A stretch of 64,000 nt of DNA from Volutella citrinella (taxonomy: Eukaryota; Ascomycota; Sordariomycetes; Hypocreales; Nectriaceae): assembly GCA_034401135.1 (NCBI GenBank), contig JAWZSP010000005.1:1116001-1180000 (forward strand), given 5' to 3'. Shown here piece by piece: positions 4,463 through 57,500 of the stretch (its first letter is position 1; the number at the start of each line of letters is the position of its first letter). Both the position numbers and the translations under genes were made by a program. The notes under the pieces are model-generated. The model worked only from the letters and a program-made list of their open reading frames with translations, was not told the origin of the DNA and made no database searches.

Positions 4463-4592
4463 GCGGGTTTAGCTCAGTTGGGGTAAGAGAATCTTCTCAT
4501 CAAAACTCCGGCCCATCCAAGTCTAACAATCTTTCACAGAGAGCGTCAGACTGAAGATCTGAAGGTCGTGTGTTCGATCCACACAAACCGCA
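4463..4592 (+). tRNA. tRNA-Phe(GAA), copy 1, with a D-loop intron
   Basis: Exons 4463-4482 and 4540-4592 join into a 73-nt tRNA. Acceptor stem GCGGGTT pairs with AAACCGC apart from one G5-A68 mismatch. D stem is GCTC/GAGC with loop AGTTGGGA, anticodon stem TCAGA/TCTGA with loop CTGAAGA (anticodon GAA), and T stem GTGTG/CACAC with loop TTCGATC. The A box (TAGCTCAGTTGG) lies wholly before the insertion and the B box (GTTCGATCC) after it, so internal Pol III promoter elements are intact, about 100 bp apart. The insertion 4483-4539 sits between nucleotides 20 and 21 in the D-loop. The usual 37/38 intron position is empty. A T6 run at 4622-4627 is the likely terminator. The copy is identical in its exons to the one at 4727-4853. 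Confidence 0.93.
4483..4539 (+). other. Spliceosomal-type intron inside tRNA-Phe copy 1
   Basis: A 57-bp insertion starting GTAAGA, with TCTAAC at 4522-4527 as a branch site and ending TTTCACAG at 4539. Donor, branch and acceptor match those of protein-coding introns in this window. Its removal restores a canonical D-loop exactly. The cut is ambiguous by one nucleotide because both the exon 1 end and the intron end are G. Confidence 0.8.
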
Positions 4593-4601
4593 CAAGCCAG
4601 T

Positions 4602-4616
4602 GTTCTCCTCGAGAAC
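4602..4616 (+). other. Trailer hairpin after tRNA-Phe copy 1
   Basis: Perfect 6-bp stem GTTCTC/GAGAAC with a CTC loop, nine bases after the tRNA 3' end and before the T6 run. The second tRNA copy has a hairpin in the equivalent position with a different stem sequence. Confidence 0.55.
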
Positions 4617-4621
4617 CTCCA

Positions 4622-4627
4622 TTTTTT
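4622..4627 (+). terminator. Pol III T-run after tRNA-Phe copy 1
   Basis: Six consecutive T on the transcribed strand, 30 bases beyond the tRNA end. A T7 run at about 4651-4657 could act as a back-up. Confidence 0.65.
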
Positions 4628-4726
4628 GCATCCCATTGGTGATTCTGAGACCATTTTTTTCGACTTTTCGTGGGGGCTCCACACCACAGCACAAGAGCCG
4701 GTTGAGCATCTCAGATTTGCATCAAA

Positions 4727-4853
4727 GCGGGTTTAGCTCAGTTGGGGTAAGTTGCAAAACTACAAAACTCCAGCACCACAAAAGTCTAACAATCTCTTAG
4801 AGAGCGTCAGACTGAAGATCTGAAGGTCGTGTGTTCGATCCACACAAACCGCA
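4727..4853 (+). tRNA. tRNA-Phe(GAA), copy 2, with a D-loop intron
   Basis: Exons 4727-4746 and 4801-4853 give the same 73-nt tRNA as copy 1, base for base, including the GAA anticodon, intact A and B boxes and the single G5-A68 mismatch. The insertion 4747-4800 is at the same D-loop position but differs in sequence and length from copy 1 over much of its 5' half. Perfect conservation of the exons with diverged introns suggests that both genes are under selection and that the insert is removed from the transcript. T5 at 4883-4887 and T7 at 4902-4908 are the likely terminators. Confidence 0.93.
4747..4800 (+). other. Spliceosomal-type intron inside tRNA-Phe copy 2
   Basis: A 54-bp insertion with perfect donor GTAAGT, branch TCTAAC at 4785-4790 and acceptor CTTAG at 4800. 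The part from the central CAAAACTCC motif to the branch site aligns with the copy 1 intron, so the two are paralogous. The 5' parts have diverged. Confidence 0.8.
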
Positions 4854-4882: not shown

Positions 4883-4887
4883 TTTTT
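4883..4887 (+). terminator. Pol III T-run after tRNA-Phe copy 2
   Basis: Five consecutive T directly after the trailer hairpin, followed by T7 at 4902-4908. Confidence 0.6.
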
Positions 4888-12786: not shown

Positions 12787-14165
12787 ATGCGTCAGGTGCA
12801 GCCGCGGCGACGACGGCGGTGCCCTGCATGGGCGCGTATAGTTGACAATGGACAACAAGATGCGCGACGGTACGTCGTACGGGGATGTTGTGTTAAGTAT
12901 CGTCTGGGAGGGAGGTTGGATGCGCCAGTTGTGGGGGGGGGGGGCGGTACATTTGCCGGGATAGGCAATATTGGCGTGGGGCGGGGGCAGCCGGAGACGA
13001 GGTCGGCGCACTGGGGATGGACCTCGTCCCGTTAAGAAGCAACGCGGCAACTAGGCGCGGGCATGACACTCCGTGTAGGTGCTACGAGGAGAGAGGGAGG
13101 CGCATCGGCCGAGTCCTCGGGTTTGTTGCGCAGCCACGCACCTGCAGACGCGGGACAGGAACGACGGAGTAGACGGAGTAGACGGACATGGCCAGAGTCG
13201 CAGACGCATGAGCCAGATGTGGCCGATTGTCCCCGGCCCGGTGGATCCAGCGAGGCACGAGACGACTGGCTGGGGCAGTTTCTGACAGTTCACGGGGTCG
13301 AGATCGGGGCCTCTCATGAGCCGCCCCGGAGGAGGACCCCCAGCAATAGCATTGGGTTTAGGGCTCCTCCGGCGGCGCCCCCCGTCTTTGACCTTAACTC
13401 AAGACGTCCTGCCGCGTGTTCTGGGGCCGTCCGAGGGCATGATTCGAGTGTGGGGGGACGGAACTACTGGAAAGGGGATCGACCAGAGCGATGAGACCTG
13501 CGCGCTGGGCCACGCAACCACAGACATGGCACGGCGGGAATGTCAATGGGCGTGGAAGTTTGGAGAGGGACGGCGGGCGACGGGCTAGCTCTTGTAGGGA
13601 TCAAGGTCAGCAGCGGGCAGATGTTTTCTCGCTTAAAGGTGAGCAGCGTGGTGAGAGACCCAGGAGAGAGACAACACATGGGAGTGGGGGGGGGGGGGGG
13701 GGGAGGGACGACGATGCGCTTGGAATTGCCCCCGGGTTGCCGCTTCGGGAATGTGATAGGGGCGGGCAGGCGTGGCCAGCCGGATTGCTGGAAATAGGAA
13801 GCCCGGCCGAGGCGCAACTAGTCACAAAAGAGCGAGGACGCCAGCGTAAGTTTTTCCTCTTTTTTCCTTGCACGAGTCGTTCCCGCTGGACGAGGGGTTC
13901 GTAGCTGATTCATGATGATGATACGACAGCAAGTGGAAGGGCAACAATGAACAACAATGCACAAAGCTCGACCGAACCGTTATTAAGAAAGATGGAAGAA
14001 ACACGACGAATTAAAAATAAAAATAAAACCCACACGCGGCAGCACGCAACGCTCACACAGATCCCAGCGCTCCCCAAACACCAAGGCCTTTATCGCACGA
14101 CATCTATCTTTTGACTGTTTGTTCCCTTCGTTTCTCTTCTCTGGGCGAAAAAAAAAGAGAAAAGG
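12787..14165. other. Intergenic, regulator promoter side; G-tracts
   Basis: No supported gene. Contains a run of 12 G at 12933-12944 and a run of 18 G at 13686-13703. The C-rich strand is the template-side leader of the leftward regulator gene. Confidence 0.5.
13686..13703 (+). repeat. G18 homopolymer tract
   Basis: Eighteen consecutive G in an intergenic purine-rich stretch (GGGA blocks follow). A G-quadruplex is possible, but length may be unreliable in assembly. Confidence 0.7.
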
Positions 14166-16337
14166 CTACTGCTCCAGCACCGCCTGCACACCCCGCAGGA
14201 TGCTCACGACACCCAGGGCACCCGGGTCGGGGATGCCCCCCTCCTCATCGAAGCGGTCCTGGCCGACGTAGCTCGCGCGGCCCAGCGCTGCTACCATCTT
14301 GCGCGTGCCCTCTGCGCCCTTGCGCGCAGCCCCAATGCTCTCGCCGAGCGGTTTGCCGGCCGCAAGCTCGCCCACAAAGGGAATGAGCGCGTCCATGAGG
14401 GTGCGGTGCCCGACGCGCGCGGGCGTGTACCGGCACAGCTCGTCGAGGCCGCCCTGCAGGGCCTGGGGCACGAGTTCGGCCGCCGATGCAGAAGGCGAGG
14501 CCAGCTCCGCGAGACGGTTGGCCACGGCGTTGAGGAAGATGGCGTAGATGGCACCCGACGTGCCGCCCATGTTCCGCTCCGCCGTCGTGGCCGTGCGGCG
14601 GAAAATGTGGCCGATGTCAAGCGTCTCGCCGCTGTCCTTTTGGAACTCCTTGACGAGGCCTGTCACTGGTTAGCCATGGCATCTACGTGATATTTGTTCT
14701 GGTGTCATGTTCATGATGGGGCGAACAACAGCCATAATGGGAAAAGGGGGGCAATTCGTACCGTTGACGCCGTTCAGCAGTGTCTCTCCACAGTCTCCGT
14801 CGCCGGCTAGCGTGTCGTACTCGGTGATCTTGGGCTCGTCCTCGGCCGTCGCCTTTGCGACCGAGTCGATGATGCTCCTGACAAGGGCCGTAGGAACTGT
14901 TGCCGAAGCATACGTCAGTATTTCATGTCATCTCTCACAGCAGCCCGTCGTCATCTCTCGCAGAACGTACCCGTGACTCCCGTCTCCTTTCCGTTGCCGC
15001 CGTCGCTGGCCGGGCTCGCCGTCTCGCGCTGGGCCGTCGACTCAGCGTCCGTAGCCCACCCATGGATCGACCGCGGCCAAGCAGGTGCAGTGGTCGGGGC
15101 ATCGAGCAGCTCCGCCAACTCGTCATCCAGCCGAAGCAGAGTGACGGAGAAGCCAGGCCCGTCGAGCGACGTCACAAAGGTGCCGACCAGGCCCCTGTCA
15201 ATGACAATCTGGCGCTCGCCCAGCTGACGGACGACCTCATCGGCGACGACGCCCTGCTCCAGCACGCTGAGGCCGCCGAGGTTGTTGACCATCAGGGCCA
15301 CCCGCTCGCCAGCCTGGGGCTGCCACATGTTGGCCTTGGGGGCGAAGAGCATCTCGAGCGTCTTGCGCACCGTCTCCTCCAGGACGGGCACCTGCTCGCG
15401 CTTGACACCCGGCTCGTTGTGGATGCCCATGCCGTACTCGAGCTGGTCGTGCGGGAGCGCTTCCTGGTTCGCGCGACCGGGCACGCTGCATCGGTCCAGG
15501 CTGGCGGCAACAGTTGCCATCTGCGCAGCCGCCTTCTTGGCGACGCTGGTGACCTCGGCAAGGGTGGCACTGGAGCATGTTAGTCAATGTGTTCTTCGTT
15601 GATCCCGATGGAAATACATACCCCTTGGCTGCCTTTGCGCCGGCAATCTTGTGAACAAAGACTACGCCTGCAAGACCTCGCTGGCCGACCAGGGAGTTGC
15701 CCTCGACCGACACATCGTCACCCACAATGACCATGTTCACGTCCTGGCCGTCCGCCTTGGCCTTTTCGGCCGCCAGTCCAAAGTTGAGCTTGTCACCCGT
15801 GTAGTTCTTGACAATCATCAAAGTCCTGCCCACACGTTAGCGTCCGTCCCTCAGGCGCTTCCCATTCCCCTTGACTATGCATGGTTCTCGTTCGTCTCGA
15901 CGTACCCCTTGGGCGAGTTAACGGCCTTGAGCCCGCTGAGGATCTGCGACGCCGACGGCGAGGCAAAGATCTCTCCAGCCACCACTGCGTCCAGGGCACC
16001 CTCTCCGATGTATCCCGCATGGGCGGGCTCATGGCCAGAGCCGCCGCCAGAGAGCAGGATGACCTTGTCGGCGCCGACGGCCGGTCGTCGATACAGGACT
16101 GTTGAAGGCGAGTTAGCTTTTGCGAAACTCGATAAAGGGAGCAGGCTGCTCTCGTCAGCGACTCACTCTTCTCCGAGGGAATCAGGCTCAGCGAAGGATC
16201 CTGTAGAATGCAACTCCGTAGAGTGCGCTCGACTGGGTTCGAGACCCCGCTGATGAAGCTCTTTCCTGCATCTCGTCTTAGTCCAAATGCGCCCCTCCAA
16301 GCCGCCGGGTGTCTCTGCTTCGCCTACCGAGAGTCAT
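14166..16337 (-). CDS. Dihydroxyacetone kinase (ATP-dependent, DAK1+DAK2)
   Basis: Seven exons: 16337-16328, 16265-16167, 16098-15906, 15825-15622, 15569-14971, 14896-14762, 14659-14166. All introns are GT-AG with correct phase and lengths 62, 68, 80, 52, 74 and 102 bp. The product is 577 aa, the usual length of fungal DAK. The first exon is only 10 nt (M-T-L and part of G). The N-terminal DAK1 (DhaK) domain has GGGSGHEP, and [10 protein letters not shown], which I take to hold the histidine that binds the substrate carbonyl. The C-terminal DAK2 (DhaL) domain has GDGDCG and the GGTSGAIY loop that binds Mg-ATP. It phosphorylates dihydroxyacetone (and glyceraldehyde) to feed glycolysis. No PTS1 is visible; the C-terminus is VLEQ. 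The dihydroxyacetone synthase-like gene at 21796 would make its substrate. Confidence 0.93.
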
Positions 16338-17422
16338 GATGATGATCTATGCAGTTTTCGTGAGAAAGAGTCGATCCCAGACGGGCCGCAAAAGGGGTAT
16401 TTTCGCAAAGGAAGCTGGGTGAGGGTCTCACTCATCAATAGCCCTCATTGCGCGTGGCATCTTCATCGCCTTATGCGTATTGACTACGGCGTTCCAACAT
16501 TCCTTTTTGGGCCATGAGGGGGTTCGCCATCTCGCCCACGCTCAATACTTTTTTTCTCAATCCACGCCCCTGCGCTTGTACGGTAAAACATCGCTCTACC
16601 CCTCTTCGCCCGACTACAACTGCCCGTTTCGTCCATGCGCCACACGCCTGAGTCAATCTTGCCTGCAGGCCTCGGGGAAATCCCAAGCGAATGTTTTGGT
16701 GATTGTCCCTCCCCCGATTGGAGCGCCTCCAGCTGCCCACAGCTGCATCGCCCTGGGTGCAGTGGTAAATATCCCTGTTCGGCGGGACTCAGTCTCCCGG
16801 ACCTGCCAGTTGGGACGACTCTTCTAGCGTCAGGAACTGGAATGCCTGTCTCGGAAGCCAAGAGGTATTCCGGGAAAGCTTGGCCATGGCCGGTGGGGGT
16901 TCGTATATAATGCCGGGGCTCAATGGCCCGTCCCCGACAAGATGGCTTCTTCAAAGATGCCAGCCTGGGGATATGGCTTGTGGCCTGTCGATATGTTTTC
17001 TCGTGCCATGTCGATAGCCATCTCCGAATTCTGTATCACAGCAACTGCTCTCAAGGCATCGTGCTCACCAATCCCCTGATGCTAGCTGTCAGCTGGACCC
17101 TGGCCTCAAAACCTACTACTTGCTGTAACCATGGACTTGCTGGCTAGGGTAAGGGATGTGCGTGGGGGAGACAATGCATGTCCAATTGCCATCAACCCCA
17201 CAATATATGCCCCGTGACAATCATAAATCTTCTAAAAGCAGCTTCCGAGTCCCATATGACTGGTTTAAAATGAGGCCCGAGCTCTCTGAACCCGGCCTCC
17301 CGTGTGGGACCCGGAGCTGTCTCTGCTTATCGGAAGACACAAGGAAACGTGCAGTGCTATCATGGCTCTTGACTGGTTCATTATTATTTGGCTTGGTATT
17401 CAACTTGCTATCATGTAAATAA
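16338..17422. other. Intergenic, no supported gene
   Basis: Upstream of the kinase gene and downstream of the ADP-ribosylglycohydrolase gene. A TATATAAT word near 16905 precedes a 74-codon ORF at 16923-17147, but that ORF has no family features and is not called. Confidence 0.5.
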
Positions 17423-18757
17423 TTAATCCCATCTCCCAAACCACTTCCCCTTCTTCTTCTCGCTGCTGACTTCGTTCTTCTTCTTCCACTCCTGCTCCTC
17501 CTTGGCCATCCACGCCTGCATCTCCATGCACTTCCGCTCCATCTGGTCGTCCGTCAGGTACCCCCGCCCGCCGTCATGCGCCGTGTCCTTGTCTTCGGAG
17601 CCCTTGTAGTTGCCCACGGTGATGCCGAGGACCACGCAGAGGCCCTCGGCCTTTTTCATCAGCCAGTCGCCGTGCACGAGGCCATCGCGCCAGTGCGGGG
17701 GTAGCGCTTTGAAGCCCAGAAGCGCGCCCACGAGGGAGCCGGCGAAGCAGGCGTTGGTGTCGGCGTCGCCAGCCTCCATGGTCAGGTCCGTGATGAGCTC
17801 CTCGAAAATGGAGAGCTGTGAGCGCAGCCCATTGGATGCCTTTAGCTTCCGCATGGCGAGCCGCAGGAGCAGGATGCCGGACCCAAAGGTCTTGTAGACG
17901 TAGCCGATCTTGTAGCTCTCGTCCAGCTGGAGCTCCTCGAGCGTGTTGACCGAGTAGTAGAACTTGAGCTCGTTGGCGTCCAGGTCGGGCTCGTCTTTTC
18001 GAGCGGGGTCCTTGAGCTCCTCCTTCCGGTACTCGCTGTACCAGGCGATGGCCTTTTCAATCAGCGCATCGAGGTCGCTTTCCGTGCGGACTTCTCCCAG
18101 GACGAGGCCGCGGACCAGCGCGGTTCCAATCACACAGGAGACGACACACCGGGGGTCCACGTGCGTGACATCTGAGAAGTCCACAGCGACCTTGAACGTC
18201 TCCTCCACCGTCTTTTGTAGACACATGAGTCCGAGAGGATGAGTCCTCATGAGGCTTCCATTTGGCGCGGCGTTGTAGCTTCCTTTTGTCCAGTGGTCCA
18301 ACGCCCTGGTCTTGGGATCATCTAGATAGGTCGAGCTTCTGACAATGGCCCCGACGGTCCTGCCCAGACCCAGGGGTAGAGTGTCCAGTGCCCGGAGTCC
18401 CATGCGGACCCACACAGAGAGGCGTGAGGCGAAGTCTTTGGGGTCTAGCTGCTTCCCATCCGTGTGTAGATATGAGAGGAGGATGAGCATGGCGTGGTCT
18501 GTGTCGTCGGTCCATTCCCCGGGCTTGTGGAAGTTCCTGTGGTGGTCGCGACGGAAGGGAGTGGCATTTTCCGGGGGCAGAAACGTGAATGTCCGCAAAG
18601 GATATGCCTTCGCGGACAGCTCCTTGTTGAGGAACTCGGTGTAGAGCCCGACGGCATCTCCAAGGGCAGAGCCAAATAGGGTGCCTACGACGCGGTCGTG
18701 CAGAGCAGCCTGAGACACGGCGGTGGCTGCTTCTGGTGATAGCTGAATGTTGGCCAT
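17423..18757 (-). CDS. ADP-ribosylglycohydrolase-fold (ARH/DraG) protein
   Basis: Single exon, 444 aa. The family motifs are all present: GSALGDAVG near residues 29-37, the metal-binding WTDDT near 82-86, NGSLMRTHPLG in the middle, a VTHVDPRC segment, and GDADTN near 330 that supplies the second pair of Mg ligands. Members remove ADP-ribose from proteins or from related nucleotides using two Mg ions. The acidic metal ligands are intact, so an active enzyme is likely, but the substrate cannot be read from sequence. The C-terminus is a charged Lys/Glu-rich tail. It lies between the kinase and SDR genes on the same strand, without overlap; a functional link to them is not shown. Confidence 0.88.
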   Translation of the reverse strand: MANIQLSPEAATAVSQAALHDRVVGTLFGSALGDAVGLYTEFLNKELSAKAYPLRTFTFLPPENATPFRRDHHRNFHKPGEWTDDTDHAMLILLSYLHTDGKQLDPKDFASRLSVWVRMGLRALDTLPLGLGRTVGAIVRSSTYLDDPKTRALDHWTKGSYNAAPNGSLMRTHPLGLMCLQKTVEETFKVAVDFSDVTHVDPRCVVSCVIGTALVRGLVLGEVRTESDLDALIEKAIAWYSEYRKEELKDPARKDEPDLDANELKFYYSVNTLEELQLDESYKIGYVYKTFGSGILLLRLAMRKLKASNGLRSQLSIFEELITDLTMEAGDADTNACFAGSLVGALLGFKALPPHWRDGLVHGDWLMKKAEGLCVVLGITVGNYKGSEDKDTAHDGGRGYLTDDQMERKCMEMQAWMAKEEQEWKKKNEVSSEKKKGKWFGRWD

Positions 18758-19449
18758 TGTGAATCAATTCGGTTGTAGGCCGACGGGTTACTGAACACAG
18801 ACCTACGAGCAACGTCGTTGTTTTTATCAAGACCACCATCACCACAAGGCAGCCTTGGAGGCATCCGTCAATCGTCGGGGAGGCTGAGGCATGTGCTATA
18901 ATTTGCGGCTGAAAGTGGCGCTATGGTCGGATAGTGGACATGGTGGTGGCAGTGAATCGCAACTAGCACCGCCAGCTTCAGCGTCCCCTCTGCAAGTCTT
19001 GACCCTAGATTTGCTGGATTGGAATACAGGTGCCTGATTGTGAGCCCAGTTGTTTCGAGCTGTGAGGGGCGAATCCAGGCTTCCAGATTAACAGGAGAAT
19101 TAATGTCGATGCCTGCGTCTAGTCTCGGATGCGGGGCACAAGACAAGCTCAGCTATGGATTGCTCTGGTATGCACGAGCACCACCATTGTCAATTGCTTT
19201 CGACTTGATGGGGAGCACCTGGCGAGACGAAAATGGATGGGAATTCCATGGCTGATTGCAAGGACCAATGAAACACCTTGTTCACTCGTGTGCCGCACAA
19301 GGCTGTTGGAATAACATTGTAGATTAAAAGGTATTGTTCTAAGTTGCAACTGATCGCACGCTCATTTCCCTTTTCGTTGACACTACCCGACGCCGCTTTG
19401 CATGCTAGAAAATTCAAATTCGTGGGATACTTCTGCATCAATATCCCCC
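18758..19449. other. Intergenic, no gene seen
   Basis: Promoter of the ARH-fold gene and 3' flank of the SDR gene, both leftward. No supported ORF. Confidence 0.5.
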
Positions 19450-20498
<1,049 letters not shown>

Positions 20499-20820
20499 TG
20501 CTCTGGTATGCGGGTGTCTAAGGCGGAAGAGGGAATGGGGATATCGCAGAGGATGGCAGAGAAGATGCAGATTGAGCTGATGAGCAAGTCTCCATTTCGA
20601 GGATCAACTTGACGATATATCTACTTTTTTCAGAGCAAAGCATTCACAAGGGCAGCGAGTGGTGTTCCAATTCGGCTTCCCGAGAATGGACATCCAGTCC
20701 AACGACGGCTGGATCGAGAACTCTGCAGGATGCACAAGGTCACGATGGCCGTTTTGGTGGCAGGCGCAATGGCATGGCTCGACGGGCGTCGCGGGCGGAA
20801 GTTGCATACGTTTCGGTCTT

Positions 20821-20866
20821 GTCCCGGACGGCAGTCTGATGCGTTCTTGTCTGGACCGTCCGGGAC
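20821..20866. promoter_or_regulatory. Inverted repeat in the divergent promoter
   Basis: GTCCCGGACGG at 20821-20831 and its exact reverse complement CCGTCCGGGAC at 20856-20866, separated by 24 bp. Both arms contain CGG/CCG words of the type bound by Zn2Cys6 dimers. Confidence 0.5.
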
Positions 20867-21071
20867 GACACACTTGACGCTCGGCATCACCCGATCTGGG
20901 CTCGCGTCGTTCGGGAGAGGCCCCCCAGCGGAAACCTTGGGGGGTCCTCGTCGTGTCTCTTTGGACTGCTAGAGTCTCCCTCAGGCCTCTGCGGCCGTAT
21001 GCGGCCCCCCTGTTTTGGTTCCATGTGGGCACTTGAGCATGTGGTCACGGGGCGGGAAGTAGTCGAGCCTA

Positions 21072-21083
21072 CTCCGTACGGAG
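21072..21083. promoter_or_regulatory. Perfect palindrome CTCCGTACGGAG
   Basis: Twelve-bp perfect palindrome with inverted CCG/CGG halves two bases apart, in the shared SDR/synthase promoter; a plausible zinc-cluster regulator site. Confidence 0.45.
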
Positions 21084-21720
21084 TGATGAATCCTGGACGG
21101 ACTCCATCCTCTCGGCCGGGAGATCCGGAACCCGGAGGCAGGTGTAGGCGGATGCGCTTCCAACTGCCGTGCTACACCGAAGCCACAGGGGCGGGAGCAC
21201 AGCCACAAGATCTGAGCCACACTTGGATGAGCCACAGCACTAGCGCCAAAGATGGGCGACGTGAATGATAGCATCACCCCTCTGTCATTCTTCGTCCCCA
21301 TCCCCATCCTGCCTACGGCGTCGAAGTATCGACAGCGCATGCGCTTGCATTTCCTGTTTTGGGCCGACAAATTAGATCCCCCCCTCGTGATCGCTCTCCC
21401 GCGTAATCGCCGGCAGTTGTCACCCTGCAGCCCCGCCACTCAACCACCCCGCGGCGTTCTAAACTTCCTAATGCGGCAATATAGGCGTTGGGGGACTGTC
21501 GCCCGCCATTGTTCCGGTGCATCTTCCGGGCTGTCGCAGCAGCCCCACGTTTTTTGCGCTCACGCGGCTCACAATTCGAGGGGCCTGTCAGCGACCCAAA
21601 GGCCGGGCGTCGGGTCGAGGGGCGTTTGCGTTGCCTTGTTAGGGAAGTTGGAGATTTTATATACCAGCCATGTGGACGTCTGCCTTTCCCTCCCTCTCCT
21701 CTCCTACATCTCCAGCATCA

Positions 21721-21741
21721 GCAGCAGCAGCAGCAGCAGCA
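21721..21741 (+). repeat. (GCA)7 in the leader of the synthase gene
   Basis: Seven tandem GCA units about 55 bp before the start codon, downstream of the TATA-like box, so probably in the 5' UTR. Confidence 0.7.
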
Positions 21742-21795
21742 GATCCTCCCGCTCTCCGTGTTCGAGTGTAAAAGGTCAAGCCAGAGCAGAACAAG

Positions 21796-24169
21796 ATGGC
21801 GCCCATTGCAATCACCCCCGACGCGGCCCCGCTGCCCACCACGCTGGCCGCCGACATCAAGCGCATCCGCAATGAAGACTCCAAGACCATCGACGTGGTG
21901 CTCCGCCAGTTCCGCTCCCTGATTGCCGATCTGTGCCAACAGTTCAACGGTGGCCACCCTGGGTATGCTCGCCCCTGAGAAGAAATCCAGAGAATCCAAA
22001 AGTCTGGAATGCGTCGCTGACCGCCTCATAGATCTGCCATGGGCATGGCCGCCATTGGTGTCGCCCTCTGGAAGTACGTCATGAAGTACTCGCCCACCAA
22101 CCCCGACTACTTCAACCGGGACCGCTTCGTCCTCTCCAACGGCCACACCTGCCTGTTCCAGTACACCTTCTTCCACCTGACGGGCTACAAGCACATGTCG
22201 ATGGAGCAGCTCAAGACGTACCACTCGTCGCGCTACGACTCGTACTGCCCCGGCCACCCCGAGATCGAGCACCCCGGCGTCGAGGTCACCACCGGACCCC
22301 TCGGCCAGGGCATCGCCAACGCCGTCGGCCTGGCCATGGCCACCAAGCACCTGGCTGCCACCTACAACCGCCCCGGCTTTGATGTCGTCAACAACACCAC
22401 CTGGTGCATGATTGGCGACGCCTGTCTGCAGGAGGGCGTCGCCCTCGAGGCCTTCCAGCTGGCCGGCCACTGGAAGCTCAACAACCTCGTCGTCATCTAC
22501 GACAACAACCAGATCACCTGCGACGGCACCGTCGACCTCTGCAACTCCGAGGACGTCAACGAGAAGATGCGCGCCACCGGCTTCAACGTTATTGACGTCG
22601 AGGACGGCTGCTACGACGTCGAGGGCCTCGTCCAGGCGCTCCTCCAGGCCAAGGCCAGCACCGACAAGCCCACCTTCATCAACGTCCGCACCGTCATCGG
22701 CGTCGGCAGCGACGTCGCCGGCGACGCAAAGGCCCACGGCGCTGCCTTTGGCGTCGAGGGCGTCAAGAACGTCAAGCGCGCCTTTGGCTGCGACCCCGAG
22801 CAGAACTTTGTCGTCTCGGACGAGGTCTACGCCTACTTTGCCGACCTCAAGGTCCGCGGCCAGCGCTACGAGGAGGACTGGGACAGCCTCGTCGCCGCCT
22901 ACGCCAAGGAGCACCCGGAGCTCCACGCCGAGTTCAGCAAGCGTGTCCAGGGCGCCTTCACCGAGGACTGGCGCAGCATCATACCCGCCAAGGAGACGTT
23001 CCCTACCGGCCCTACTGCCTCGCGCAAGTCTGCCGGCATCGTCTGTAACCCCCTGGCCGCCAAGCTCAACACCTTCATGGTCGGCACCGCCGATCTGTCC
23101 CCCTCTGTCAACATGATCTGGAAGGACAAGGTTGACTTCCAGAACGTGAGTAGCCCCGGGATTGCGAGCAGATGAGACTCAGGAGATGGATGCTGACTTT
23201 GTGTGAATAGCCTGATCTCAAGACTGCCTGTGGCATCAACGGCAACTATGGCGGCCGATACATTCACTGGGGTATCCGTGAGCACGCCATGGCCTCTGTT
23301 TCCAACGGCCTGGCTGCCTTTAACAAGGGCACAATCCTCCCCGTCACCTCGAGCTTCTTCATGTTCTACATTGTGAGTCTTCTCCCCTATGCCTTTCGTC
23401 TTGTGCATCTTGACTAATATCTCGCTAGTATGCCGCCCCTGGCATCCGAATGGCTGCTCTCCAGCACCTCCAGTCCATCCACATCGCCACCCACGACTCC
23501 ATCGGCACCGGCGAGGACGGCCCTACCCACCAGCCCATCGCCCTCCCGGCGCTCTACCGATCCATGCCCAACATCCTCTACATCCGACCCTGCGACACCG
23601 AGGAGACGGCCGGCGCCTTCATCGCCGCCCTCGAGGCCAAGAACACCCCCTCCATCCTCTCCCTGTCCCGCCAGAACCTCGAGCAGTACCCCCAGTACTC
23701 GAGCCGAGACGGCGTGCTCAAGGGCGCCTACGTCTTCATCGAGGAGGACAAGGCCGACGTGACGCTCATCGGCGTCGGCGCCGAGATGGTCTTCGCCGTC
23801 AAGACGCGCGACGTGCTCAAGGAGAAGTTCGGCATCAAGGCCCGCGTCGTCTCGTTCCCCTGCCAGCGCCTCTTCAACGCCCAGCCCCTCGAGTACAAGC
23901 GCCAGGTGCTGCAGAACCGCTCGGCCGCGCCCCGCGTCGTCATCGAGGCGTACGCCGTCAACGGCTGGGAGCGCTACGCCGACGCCGGCTACTCCATGTC
24001 CACCTTTGGCAAGTCCCTGCCGGGCAAGGACGCCTACAAGTACTTTGGCTTCGACGAGGAGCGCATCGCCCCCGAGGTCGCCAAGCTCGTCGAGGAGGTC
24101 AAGGCCGACGGCATCGAGGCCATCCGCGGCGAGTTCCGTGACCTCAACCCCATTACTGAGCACTACTAG
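21796..24169 (+). CDS. Transketolase family, dihydroxyacetone synthase-like
   Basis: Exons 21796-21962, 22032-23145, 23211-23372 and 23429-24169 give 727 aa. Introns of 69, 65 and 56 bp are GT-AG. Family features: GHPGSAMGMA near the N-terminus, GPLGQGIANAVG, the thiamine diphosphate site GDACLQEG at about 184-191 with DNNQ about 20 residues later, the pyrimidine-domain GINGNYGGRYIHWGIREHAM, and HDSIGTGEDGPTHQP. Several segments (CLFQY, YHSSRYDSYCPGHPEIEHPG, GDACLQEG instead of GDG, EDVNEKMRATGFNVID) match dihydroxyacetone synthases of methylotrophic yeasts, as I remember them, better than ordinary transketolase, and it is longer than the usual 680-690 aa. That enzyme moves a ketol from xylulose-5-P to formaldehyde, giving dihydroxyacetone and glyceraldehyde-3-P. 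The C-terminus TEHY lacks a PTS1, so it is probably cytosolic. A general transketolase role remains possible. Confidence 0.9.
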
Positions 24170-24454
24170 ACATGTTTCTTTTTTTATTAGATACACTACC
24201 CCGAAGGCGCAACTTGTAGATAGAGTAGGGGAGCTTGCGGGATTGACGTAAAAATGATTCTCATGACATGGCATTTGGTTTATATATAGGCAATTCAGCA
24301 TTTTAATATTGCATAGCAAAGCATTAAGATCCGCCCTCGTGCTCCTAGCACAGCGACGAGAAGAAAAATCGTGGCAAAGTCCATGTTCCTGCTCACGAAG
24401 GCTGTTCTTTTCAATCGTCAGGCACTTCTGGGAGCACAACTTTGATGATCTCTC

Positions 24455-54538: not shown

Positions 54539-57500
54539 CTAGATGACTGGCACGGGCTGGGCGTTGCCAGCTCCAACGCTCAAGGGTTGAGCACGCTGGC
54601 TATTGCGGTCCTCCTCATTTCTGGTCGGGAAAAAGGTGCTTAGAAAATTACTCATCTTCACCGCTGTAATCGTTCTCTGTGTCGTGAAATTTTGCCCCAA
54701 CATCAGTCCCAGCTTGCCGGAGATGGATGGCGAAGCCACTTGGCCTTGGATCATGTCATATGCCGTCTTCCCAGTGCAGTCTTGTATTTTGGGGTCTGCT
54801 CCACAGTCGAGAAGCAATTTGAGATTATCTTCAATCTCCGTCTCCAAGTCCAACATGCGGAATGTCGCAAGGATATAGTCATGGAGCAGAGTTCTTCCGG
54901 ACTCGTCCTGCTTGTTGATGTCGACTCTGTCGTCCTTTAGGAGGATTTCTAGGAGAGGGGCCTTGTTGGTGTCGACAAAATACTTTCCCTGCTTAAACAT
55001 GGCTTGCAATGGCGTCAGTCCATTGCGGTTTCTCTTGGCCAAATCGGCTCCCATGGAGACAAGAGTCAAGGCGACCCGGGCGATAGGGCGGGTCATCAGC
55101 ACCTTGTGAAGATAGGTGTTGCCTTCCTCGTCAGTTCCATTAATATCAACGCGGCAATCGTTGATCAGAACGGACAGGATGTCTTCGAAAGCCTTGGTAT
55201 TGTCCGTCGAGGCAGCGGCTTTCAGAAGTGGGATTGCGCAGCTGGTGTCAGCCCGCCACTGCTGAACAAGCCGTCGAGCGAAGTCGATGTACCCGAAGCT
55301 GACGGCAATTACAATTGATGGCCGCCCGAATTCATCCTTGGCGTTGACATCAAACCGGTACTTCTCGATCAGAAGCTGGCAAACATCCCAATTTTGAGCG
55401 CTGAGTGCAGTGTGTAGTATATTGGGATGATGCCCAGGCGAGTTAGATGCGTCCTTCATCAGCACCTGGCGACCTTTCTTTGTTGCCGCCAACATGTTGA
55501 ACATGGTAGGATTGTGATCTTTCACGGTAAGGTGTAGCAGGGTCTCTCCGGAAGGGACGCGACATGCTGGGTCTGCACCATATTGCAGCAGGAGGTCGAT
55601 CAGTGCGAAGTACCCGGACCTATATGCAAGAAGTAGCGGTGTTAGAGGCACTACCGCCCACTGACTATTGATATCTGTGTCTGTGCTAGATCGAATCCGA
55701 AAGCGCTTCTTGGACGTGGACGATAGCAGGTGGTCGACGACGTGATACAATCCTAGGTGGCAGGATATGTGGAGAAGCGAGCCCACCAGTCCTTCAGAAT
55801 GGGGTAGACGATATGCAGTAGCCCACATGGTTCTAGCATGTGATGACTTTGCGAAGAAGTCTTTGTCGAGAACACCTCTAAGGGACTCTGGATCGAGTTG
55901 ACGCACATGGAAGTGCCAACTGTTGAAGGAGTAGGAAGCTAGGACCTGATCTGGGGCCCAGTTCTTTCCGTTTTCCAAGCATCCGCTTTCAAGATAGTCC
56001 AAGAGACGAATGGAGATCTCCTTATGGCCAGCCATTCTGTCAATGAAGTAGGTGTTTATGCGAAGATCACTTGGCGAAGCCAACAGAAAGTCCTTGGCGC
56101 TCTGGTGAACAAGATTGATCGTGGGACGGCCCGTTTGGGGATTTAAGACGTATAGGAGATGCCCACAAGCCTTAACATAGGTCCTACAGACCTCCTGGCG
56201 GTCCACATACTGCGTTGATCGAATGCCAAGCGCCTCACAAACTTCGGCAATCTCCAGAGGTCTCTCGGCCAACACTATCCAGCGGAGCATCTGTGAAACA
56301 ACACCCTTCTTGTCTGGGCCAATTCGGGAGAGGATTCGCTCGTAGATGGCGTCCAAGCCCTTGGGAAGCTGTTGCAGCGCGGCTTCAATCTCAGACGCCG
56401 GTCGTTTCTCGAGATCCTGGGACATGAAGCTGACCCAGAGGAATGTACCCTCAGACCGCTCCCGAAACACTGACTCTATGTGGCTTCGCAGTTCCGGGTT
56501 CTGAATGCCGCTCCTCTGCGCGATCCGAGCCACCTGGTGCGATATGTAGAGTTCGATATCGCGCCTGGCCTCGTCTAGTTTGATGTGAGGAAATGCCGAG
56601 AATGCCCTGGCGATGCAGGCGGGATATCGCCTGCTGAGGACGATGGCTTTGCATGAATGGATGCTGCGCATGCTGGGCTGGAACAGGGCTTCAAGCTTCT
56701 GCGAAAGAAGACCCAGAGACTCTTCCCGGCACTCATCGAGGGCGTCAATGACACAGTAGACAGGCTTGCCCTTCAGGCTGGCCAGCATCTCCTCGAATAT
56801 TCTCCAGAGGGTTTCGAAGGCACTCTCCTTGAAGAATTCGGTTGGCTGTGCCTTCCAGTGGGGGAGCAGCAGTGACATGAGGTTACTGTGCTGCTGGACC
56901 AAGCTGTAGATGAGGCCTCGGAGGATATTGACGGCAGTGTTTCGGGTTTCCATTTTGTTGTCGCAGAAGAAGTAGATGACAGTAGAGCCCGCATGATGCG
57001 GCCAGGAATTCAGGAGCTTGGAGAGGTAGATGGAAATGAACGTCTTCCCCTTGCCAGGAGGCCCGGAAATCCAGAGCAGGCCATTCCTGGAGCCTTCCCA
57101 AGCCTGATACTCCTCTGTGCGGGTGATCCACTCGCAAGTTCCGGGTGTTCTGTCTCCTTTGGCGCTGATTATGCTTTGGCGATCACTGATGGGGTCGGTG
57201 ATGTACAAGGCCCGAAGACATTGTTCCTCACTCGTCCCTGGTGTCGTTGTGCGCCTGAGGTCGCGCACCCCCTCTGCGACCTCTTGGATGGCCGCGCTTT
57301 GGTTGATGGAATAATTGCTAATTCGGAGTCAGTTTCGATGAACCGTCAAAAGGAAGCTGGCTGCCCAATCATACGACAATATGGTGACAATGCTGGTGTT
57401 GAGCGTATTCTTGAAGCGCTCGAGTTGGGCAAACATGTCAAAAATCTCCTGTTCCTTGATGACGCCTCCAATGGCCTTCCATGTCTTGACTCTTCGCGGG

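Follow-up and report, generated by a model that had tools for sequence, protein, structure and literature searches.

How can a nuclear tRNA gene supply its product when its D-loop is split by what looks like an mRNA intron? The question is raised by two neighbouring tRNA-Phe genes on the forward strand of the window, the 64,000-nucleotide stretch of DNA analysed here (G000:C5:1116001-1180000, from an assembly, G000, of 45.1 Mb in 26 contigs).

Two split tRNA-Phe genes and their junctions

A sequence-only reading of the window had described inserts of 57 and 54 nt after nucleotide 20 of the two genes, starting GTAAGA and GTAAGT, containing TCTAAC followed by 12 and 10 bases, and ending in CACAG and TTAG. 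Direct reading confirms all of these signals, and places the inserts, to the base, at 4483-4539 and 4747-4800. Joining the flanks leaves two identical 73-mers, as had also been stated, and ARAGORN names the product tRNA-Phe(gaa). The parts of the two genes are as follows.

4463-4592, + strand: tRNA-Phe gene 1, whole (direct read)
4463..4482, + strand: gene 1 5' exon, nt 1-20 (exon scan, ARAGORN)
4470..4481, + strand: gene 1 box A, TAGCTCAGTTGG, entirely within the 5' exon
4483..4539, + strand: gene 1 D-loop insert, 57 nt, GTAAGA...CACAG, a spliceosomal-type intron (read, intron scoring)
4501..4509, + strand: gene 1 intron block CAAAACTCC, kept in four of four introns
4522..4527, + strand: gene 1 branch-site-like TCTAAC, branch A to intron end 13 nt
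4540..4592, + strand: gene 1 3' exon, nt 21-73 (exon scan, ARAGORN)
4572..4580, + strand: gene 1 box B core, GTTCGATCC, 90 nt past box A
4622..4627, + strand: gene 1 T6 run, Pol III terminator-like
4727-4853, + strand: tRNA-Phe gene 2, whole (direct read)
4727..4746, + strand: gene 2 5' exon, nt 1-20 (exon scan, ARAGORN)
4734..4745, + strand: gene 2 box A
4747..4800, + strand: gene 2 D-loop insert, 54 nt, GTAAGT...TTAG (read, intron scoring)
4763..4771, + strand: gene 2 intron block CAAAACTCC (four-intron comparison)
4785..4790, + strand: gene 2 branch-site-like TCTAAC, branch A to intron end 11 nt
4801..4853, + strand: gene 2 3' exon, nt 21-73 (exon scan, ARAGORN)
4833..4841, + strand: gene 2 box B core, 87 nt past box A
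4883..4887, + strand: gene 2 T5 run, Pol III terminator-like

Two statements about the product and its junctions needed qualification. The spliced tRNA had been called fully folded; ARAGORN does fold it as tRNA-Phe(gaa), but the acceptor pair 5-68 is a G.A mismatch. We take the spliced 73-nt molecule to equal the cytoplasmic tRNA-Phe of Neurospora. Removal of exactly GT..AG leaves the 73-mer, as proposed, but so does the same cut made one base to the left (GG..CA). The 3' junction carries three AGs in tandem (AG|AG|AG), and use of the second or third would give bodies 2 or 4 nt shorter that ARAGORN still accepts as tRNA-Phe. Thus, the exact 3' end of the insert hinges on the first AG being used.

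By its protein matches, the host is placed near Nectriaceae (Hypocreales). Among the best 120 of many matches for each protein, lists that did not include this genome's own proteins, the transketolase of the window shows 84% identity to Dactylonectria and 82-83% to Neonectria, Ilyonectria, Mariannaea, Cosmosporella, Cylindrodendrum and Fusarium, and an ADP-ribosylglycohydrolase (17423-18760) has its best match, at 74% identity, in Cylindrodendrum. Genes for a dihydroxyacetone kinase, a short-chain dehydrogenase and the transketolase, whose relatives are named dihydroxyacetone synthase, lie close together at 14000-24300, which suggests a formaldehyde or one-carbon cluster. A 929-aa open frame on the minus strand (54539-57328) appears NACHT/ankyrin-repeat-like by eye.

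Four tRNA-Phe loci in the assembly

The assembly contains four nuclear-type tRNA-Phe(GAA) loci: genes 1 and 2 in the window, and genes 3 and 4 on another contig, G000:C2 (L006 and L007). An exact-exon scan found identical exons at all four and, in every case, a D-loop insert at 20/21, with lengths of 57, 54, 57 and 57 nt for genes 1-4. Each insert reads GTAAG...TCTAAC...AG, and the four loci yield one identical spliced product. The tRNA-Phe gene of Neurospora has a 16-bp intron at 37/38; an intron at this usual position is absent from all four genes. Outside the genes, similarity between the loci extends no further than 32 nt upstream and about 21 nt downstream, so they are four separate loci and not one locus assembled four times. 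Directly before the first base stands CCAACAA in three genes and CATCAAA in gene 2.

We searched the assembly for a tRNA-Phe gene lacking the insert, the finding that would have undercut a need for splicing. A genome search with the spliced 73-mer, which scored only the best candidates and skipped very common words, returned four matches over nucleotides 20-73 and one 16-base piece that is part of the gene 2 5' exon. The 21-base anticodon-arm pattern, allowing up to two mismatches, occurs in the whole genome at the four known places only (its reversed control gave 0 matches), and a pattern with room for an intron at 37/38, up to about 30 nt long, found the same four places and one that is not a tRNA. 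No further nuclear-type tRNA-Phe(GAA) gene was thus found in the 45.1 Mb assembly with these three patterns, and every tRNA-Phe gene in the set carries the D-loop insert. An Rfam tRNA search of the genome scored 63 of 1061 first-look candidates, giving a partial tRNA set. ARAGORN, run on nine loci, reported one additional tRNA-Phe, at L022 (G+C 0.387); its contig is AT-rich, has clustered tRNAs and is mitochondrial in appearance. Three contigs with clustered tRNAs (G000:C16, C26 and C10; G+C 0.28-0.39 at the tested loci) look mitochondrial; the tRNA matches on G000:C16 recur at an offset of 37,643 bases, so this contig may consist of two joined copies of a mitochondrial genome.

The four genes have the parts expected of a functional Pol III tRNA gene. 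In each, the 5' exon contains the whole of box A, box B follows 87-90 nt further on, the spliced product is foldable, and the first run of at least four Ts past each gene is T5-T7, starting at +30, +30, +8 and +31 for genes 1-4, with no TTTT inside any of the genes. A T5 run occurs in 76 of 3458 random 40-nt stretches of the window, compared with four of four tRNA-Phe genes. We had considered the TTTT-free introns as a mark of Pol III transcription and dropped this point, as 13 of 14 mRNA introns (described below) also lack TTTT. On these sequence features, Pol III would transcribe all four genes.

One might still suppose that the four are silent genes or pseudogenes and that the working tRNA-Phe comes from a gene absent from the assembly. 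An assembly in 26 contigs may have gaps, and the 73-mer search had the limits given above. Silent genes would, however, tend to lose what all four have retained, with exons the same throughout, both promoter boxes intact and a terminator-like T run; in addition, the anticodon-arm pattern finds these four alone, the 37/38-intron pattern adds only a non-tRNA place, and the one other tRNA-Phe is on the AT-rich, mitochondrial-looking contig. We consider this explanation distinctly improbable. These four loci, with their common anatomy and identical spliced product, are the sole nuclear-type source of tRNA-Phe found in the assembly. Since tRNA-Phe is essential and all four genes found are interrupted, the insert must be removed or tolerated, barring a gene absent from the assembly.

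The expectation that ordinary tRNA finders would miss or misjudge such genes was borne out. Neither Rfam, at its own threshold, nor ARAGORN run without introns found anything in the window (the Rfam tRNA scores of its two genes are 22.2 and 27.1 bits against a threshold of 29), and ARAGORN with introns called genes 1, 3 and 4 tRNA-Glu(ttc) and gene 2 tRNA-Ser(aga), with introns of 33 and 41 nt. Given these miscalls and sub-threshold scores, genes of this kind will be missed or misnamed in annotations, which would explain how they stay hidden.

Other tRNAs and other genomes were searched for the same arrangement. Box A followed by GTAAG occurs at 14 places in the genome (58 for the reversed control pattern), four of which are the tRNA-Phe genes. 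When GT..AG stretches of 40-150 nt were excised from GTAAG donors at the box A place, the only donors considered, ARAGORN recovered tRNA-Phe at all four tRNA-Phe places and no tRNA among 77 products from the 10 others. The junction pattern has no locus in a viral contig collection and two in a genome contig collection, both bacterial; neither contains a tRNA unspliced or in any of 12 spliced products. A 34-base pattern from the tRNA-Phe 3' exon had no match in the viral contig collection, and a protein search for relatives with translated tRNA frames found nothing.

Insert signals and routes of removal

We compared the inserts with mRNA introns of the same genome. The control set comprised 14 introns taken from four window gene models, each with Pfam domains that span its junctions (transketolase, dihydroxyacetone kinase, aldehyde dehydrogenase in two pieces, and short-chain dehydrogenase). 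It is a biased sample, as only candidates already showing a credible donor and branch motif were eligible. A fifth, Ras-like gene model, which had no clean frame, and one unplaceable aldehyde dehydrogenase intron were left out, and ab initio intron sets were discarded as too noisy.

The 14 mRNA introns are 51-102 nt long, with GTRNGN donors, CTAAC, CTGAC, CTAAT or CTCAC branch motifs, CAG or TAG ends and 9-18 nt from the branch A to the intron end. The inserts fall inside these ranges in both length (54-57 nt) and branch spacing (11-13 nt). With a model built on the control set, inserts 1-4 score 18.7, 20.8, 18.7 and 18.7, against 14.3-24.1 for the mRNA introns themselves (leave-one-out). Among same-length segments on both strands of the window, the insert included, only 1 of 127,852 (54 nt) and 2 of 127,846 (57 nt) reach the insert score, making a chance origin of the signals unlikely. 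The inserts also have features of their own. The base before CTAAC is T in all four, against G or A in all 14 mRNA introns, and for this reason the branch part of the insert score, 5.8, is below that of 12 of the 14. Furthermore, GTAAG opens four of four inserts but only one of 14 mRNA introns, and the G+C content is 0.37-0.42 for the inserts versus 0.42-0.59.

Every insert combines a 5' GT that can pair with U1 and a 3' AG. Three U1 candidates, each under the Rfam cut-off, all begin ATACTTACCTT, which is complementary to GTAAGT and includes the complement of AGGTAAGTAT; the GTAAGA donor of three copies mispairs at +6. Two U6 genes above the Rfam cut-off are full length and uninterrupted, so introns are not a general habit of Pol III genes here. 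A 60-nt U6-like match at G000:C4:4224003-4224062 (L061; 43.2 bits against a threshold of 44), followed by a T7 run, may represent a shortened U6 copy.

Comparison of the four introns shows which parts have been kept. Introns 1, 3 and 4 differ solely inside nine central bases, and intron 2 has diverged. Common to all four are GTAAG, CAAAACTCC, AAGTCTAACAATCT, the final AG and a few single columns, so that the conserved blocks, kept despite the divergence of intron 2, include all three splice signals. CAAAACTCC lies mid-intron and is retained in four of four while neighbouring bases have changed in gene 2. Through ACTCC it can base-pair with GGG|GT, spanning the 5' splice site, and in all four precursors the predicted helix buries that site; part of the branch motif is paired as well. 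Such pairing, if it forms, should hinder the spliceosome.

The predicted precursor structure bears on the possibility that the insert is retained and that the tRNA works with a giant D-loop. Ordinary tRNAs tolerate extra bases at 20a/20b, G18 and G19 remain 5' of the insert, and the folding prediction keeps the acceptor and T stems in the precursor. The D- and anticodon stems, on the other hand, are predicted to be lost with the insert in place, although the folding of long insertions is uncertain, and retention gives no reason for the exact splice signals; we regard it as very improbable. RNA structure was also weighed as the reason for the insert and set aside, since other sequences disrupt the D-stem as well: its probability falls below 0.01 in 100-178 of 400 signal-keeping shuffles and with six of 12 window mRNA introns placed there. 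Compared with such shuffles, the precursors are only somewhat more stable (z of -0.7, -2.4, -1.4 and -1.8 for genes 1-4).

AAGTCTAACAATCT (4519-4532) matches the reverse complement of exon nucleotides 21-34 (4540-4553) at 10 of 14 places, and within this first part of the 3' exon is CTGAC, which resembles a branch motif. The likeness could possibly be a trace of the intron's origin; it was noticed post hoc, is reached by 33-61 of 5000 shuffles and is not counted as evidence.

In the predicted precursor, the 3' splice site sits inside a hairpin. This placement and the presence of a Trl1-type ligase speak for a route in which an Ire1-type endonuclease would cut the insert and Trl1 would join the ends, as for HAC1/hacA mRNA. 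Ire1 sites are CNG|C-type loops at both junctions; the junctions here, GGG|GTA at the 5' side and CAG|AGA or TAG|AGA at the 3' side, have no common loop of this type by eye, and we give this route almost no credence.

A more serious alternative treats the insert as an ectopic tRNA intron of the kind found in archaea and Cyanidioschyzon: the tRNA splicing endonuclease (SEN) would cut it out, Trl1 would seal the exons, and the GT-AG look would be a coincidence or a relic. Two SEN-domain loci and a gene for a Trl1-type ligase occur in the genome. When ARAGORN is allowed introns, the option that misnames the tRNA-Phe genes, it calls anticodon-loop introns in tRNA-Arg(TCG) (20 nt), tRNA-Lys(TTT) (24 nt) and a tRNA-Thr (22 nt). 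From these genes and introns, the ordinary tRNA splicing pathway seems to be in use. According to passages of PMC3978253, bulge-helix-bulge (BHB) junctions at 20/21 occur in type I permuted tRNAs, C. merolae has D-loop introns, and ectopic introns of the Guillardia nucleomorph often have no defined BHB. The same source notes that yeast Sen54 probably contacts the D-arm, and that only an altered enzyme could handle introns at sites other than 37/38. The inserts here are at 20/21 in all four genes and not at the canonical position.

We scanned 400 BHB geometries over both possible boundaries and both topologies, and none gives four of four central-helix pairs in all four genes. At GT..AG, the canonical geometry has 0 pairs in one topology and 3, 2, 3 and 3 of 4 in the other, so the 4-bp central helix is not found at the splice sites. 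Sixteen geometries, of three kinds, reach at least three of four pairs in every gene; all need non-canonical cuts, one kind giving 4, 3, 4 and 4 pairs and two kinds 3, 4, 3 and 3 (genes 1-4). Shuffled inserts do as well or better: of 1000 trials, 947 reach three of four pairs in both intron types and 140 reach all four, so these near fits carry no meaning. Moreover, the 5' splice site is predicted in a helix and not in a bulge, and cleavage by SEN would leave GTAAG, TCTAAC and AG at mRNA-like spacing unexplained. The Guillardia introns make the absence of a BHB weak evidence against SEN processing; on the whole of the evidence we judge this route unlikely.

The sequence-only reading had left the choice between mRNA-type splicing and an endonuclease substrate that only resembles an intron. 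The former is strongly favoured by the sequence, as the inserts match mRNA introns in four of four genes and share no complete BHB. We therefore propose that these are working Pol III tRNA-Phe(GAA) genes whose D-loop is split by a U2-type (GT-AG) intron removed by the spliceosome, and put the probability of this reading at about 0.86. Pol III would transcribe through the intron and stop at the T run; U1 would bind GG|GUAAG, the A of UCUAAC would serve as the branch point, and the spliceosome would join G20 to A21, after which the tRNA could fold. The endonuclease and ligase route would handle other tRNAs and not tRNA-Phe. We infer the transcription, the spliceosomal removal and the order of processing from the gene sequences. 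The precursor, as a Pol III product, would presumably have no cap, and its 5' exon is only 20 nt plus a short leader. A single intron gain in an ancestral tRNA-Phe gene, followed by spread through the family by duplication or gene conversion, is the likely history. It is probable, too, that the whole nuclear tRNA-Phe family, and hence all cytosolic decoding of phenylalanine codons, depends on the spliceosome.

Comparison with known introns in tRNA and other non-coding RNA genes

If spliceosomal removal is correct, the spliceosome has taken over an essential tRNA entirely, acting on a Pol III transcript whose first exon is 20 nt long and which presumably lacks a cap, and natural tRNA splicing can dispense with cap, poly(A) tail and Pol II. 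The supply of tRNA-Phe would then respond to spliceosome activity and be tied to mRNA-splicing capacity. These genes would form a natural class of spliceosomal tRNA introns, replacing the endonuclease-type intron, and intron gain of this kind in tRNA genes becomes searchable across fungi.

Nuclear tRNA introns are credited to the tRNA endonuclease in passages of PMC4090602, PMC13149111, PMC8450103, PMC11782384, PMC10484740, PMC2586383, PMC3978253 and PMC6461891, and the main text of the tRNA intron review PMC4090602 does not contain 'spliceosom'. Searches of the open-licence literature listed, by title and abstract, no natural nuclear tRNA gene with a spliceosomal intron; an earlier account may exist elsewhere. 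Non-coding genes, Pol III ones among them, are known to carry spliceosomal introns; we found none described as interrupting the sole source of a tRNA family.

The nearest natural relative is the fission yeast U6 gene, made by Pol III and carrying an mRNA-type intron (Tani and Ohshima, as described in PMC10484740). Like the present genes, it gives a nuclear fungal Pol III non-coding transcript with an mRNA-type intron. Its product, however, belongs to the spliceosome itself, and the origin proposed for its intron is reverse splicing near the catalytic bases (same source), whereas the genes described here encode a tRNA essential in translation, with a box A/B promoter and short exons. Spliceosomal introns of ascomycete rDNA and of a Rhodotorula U2 gene, known from titles cited in PMC2586383, likewise interrupt fungal non-coding RNAs; these titles concern other RNA classes and no tRNA.

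The non-canonical tRNA introns of C. merolae and archaea share the D-loop interruption, even the 20/21 junction, but are described as BHB-processed by the tRNA endonuclease (PMC3978253), while the inserts here have no complete shared BHB and instead have GT-AG ends, a branch site and a U1 match. Ordinary nuclear 37/38 introns also lie within tRNA genes and differ from these in position, length and boundary signals. An artificial yeast tRNA carrying a pre-mRNA intron was reportedly spliced by the mRNA pathway (Koehrer, Vogel and Domdey, EMBO J, 1990). That construct, too, placed an mRNA intron in a tRNA body; it was made in the laboratory, whereas here the arrangement is natural and present in all copies found.
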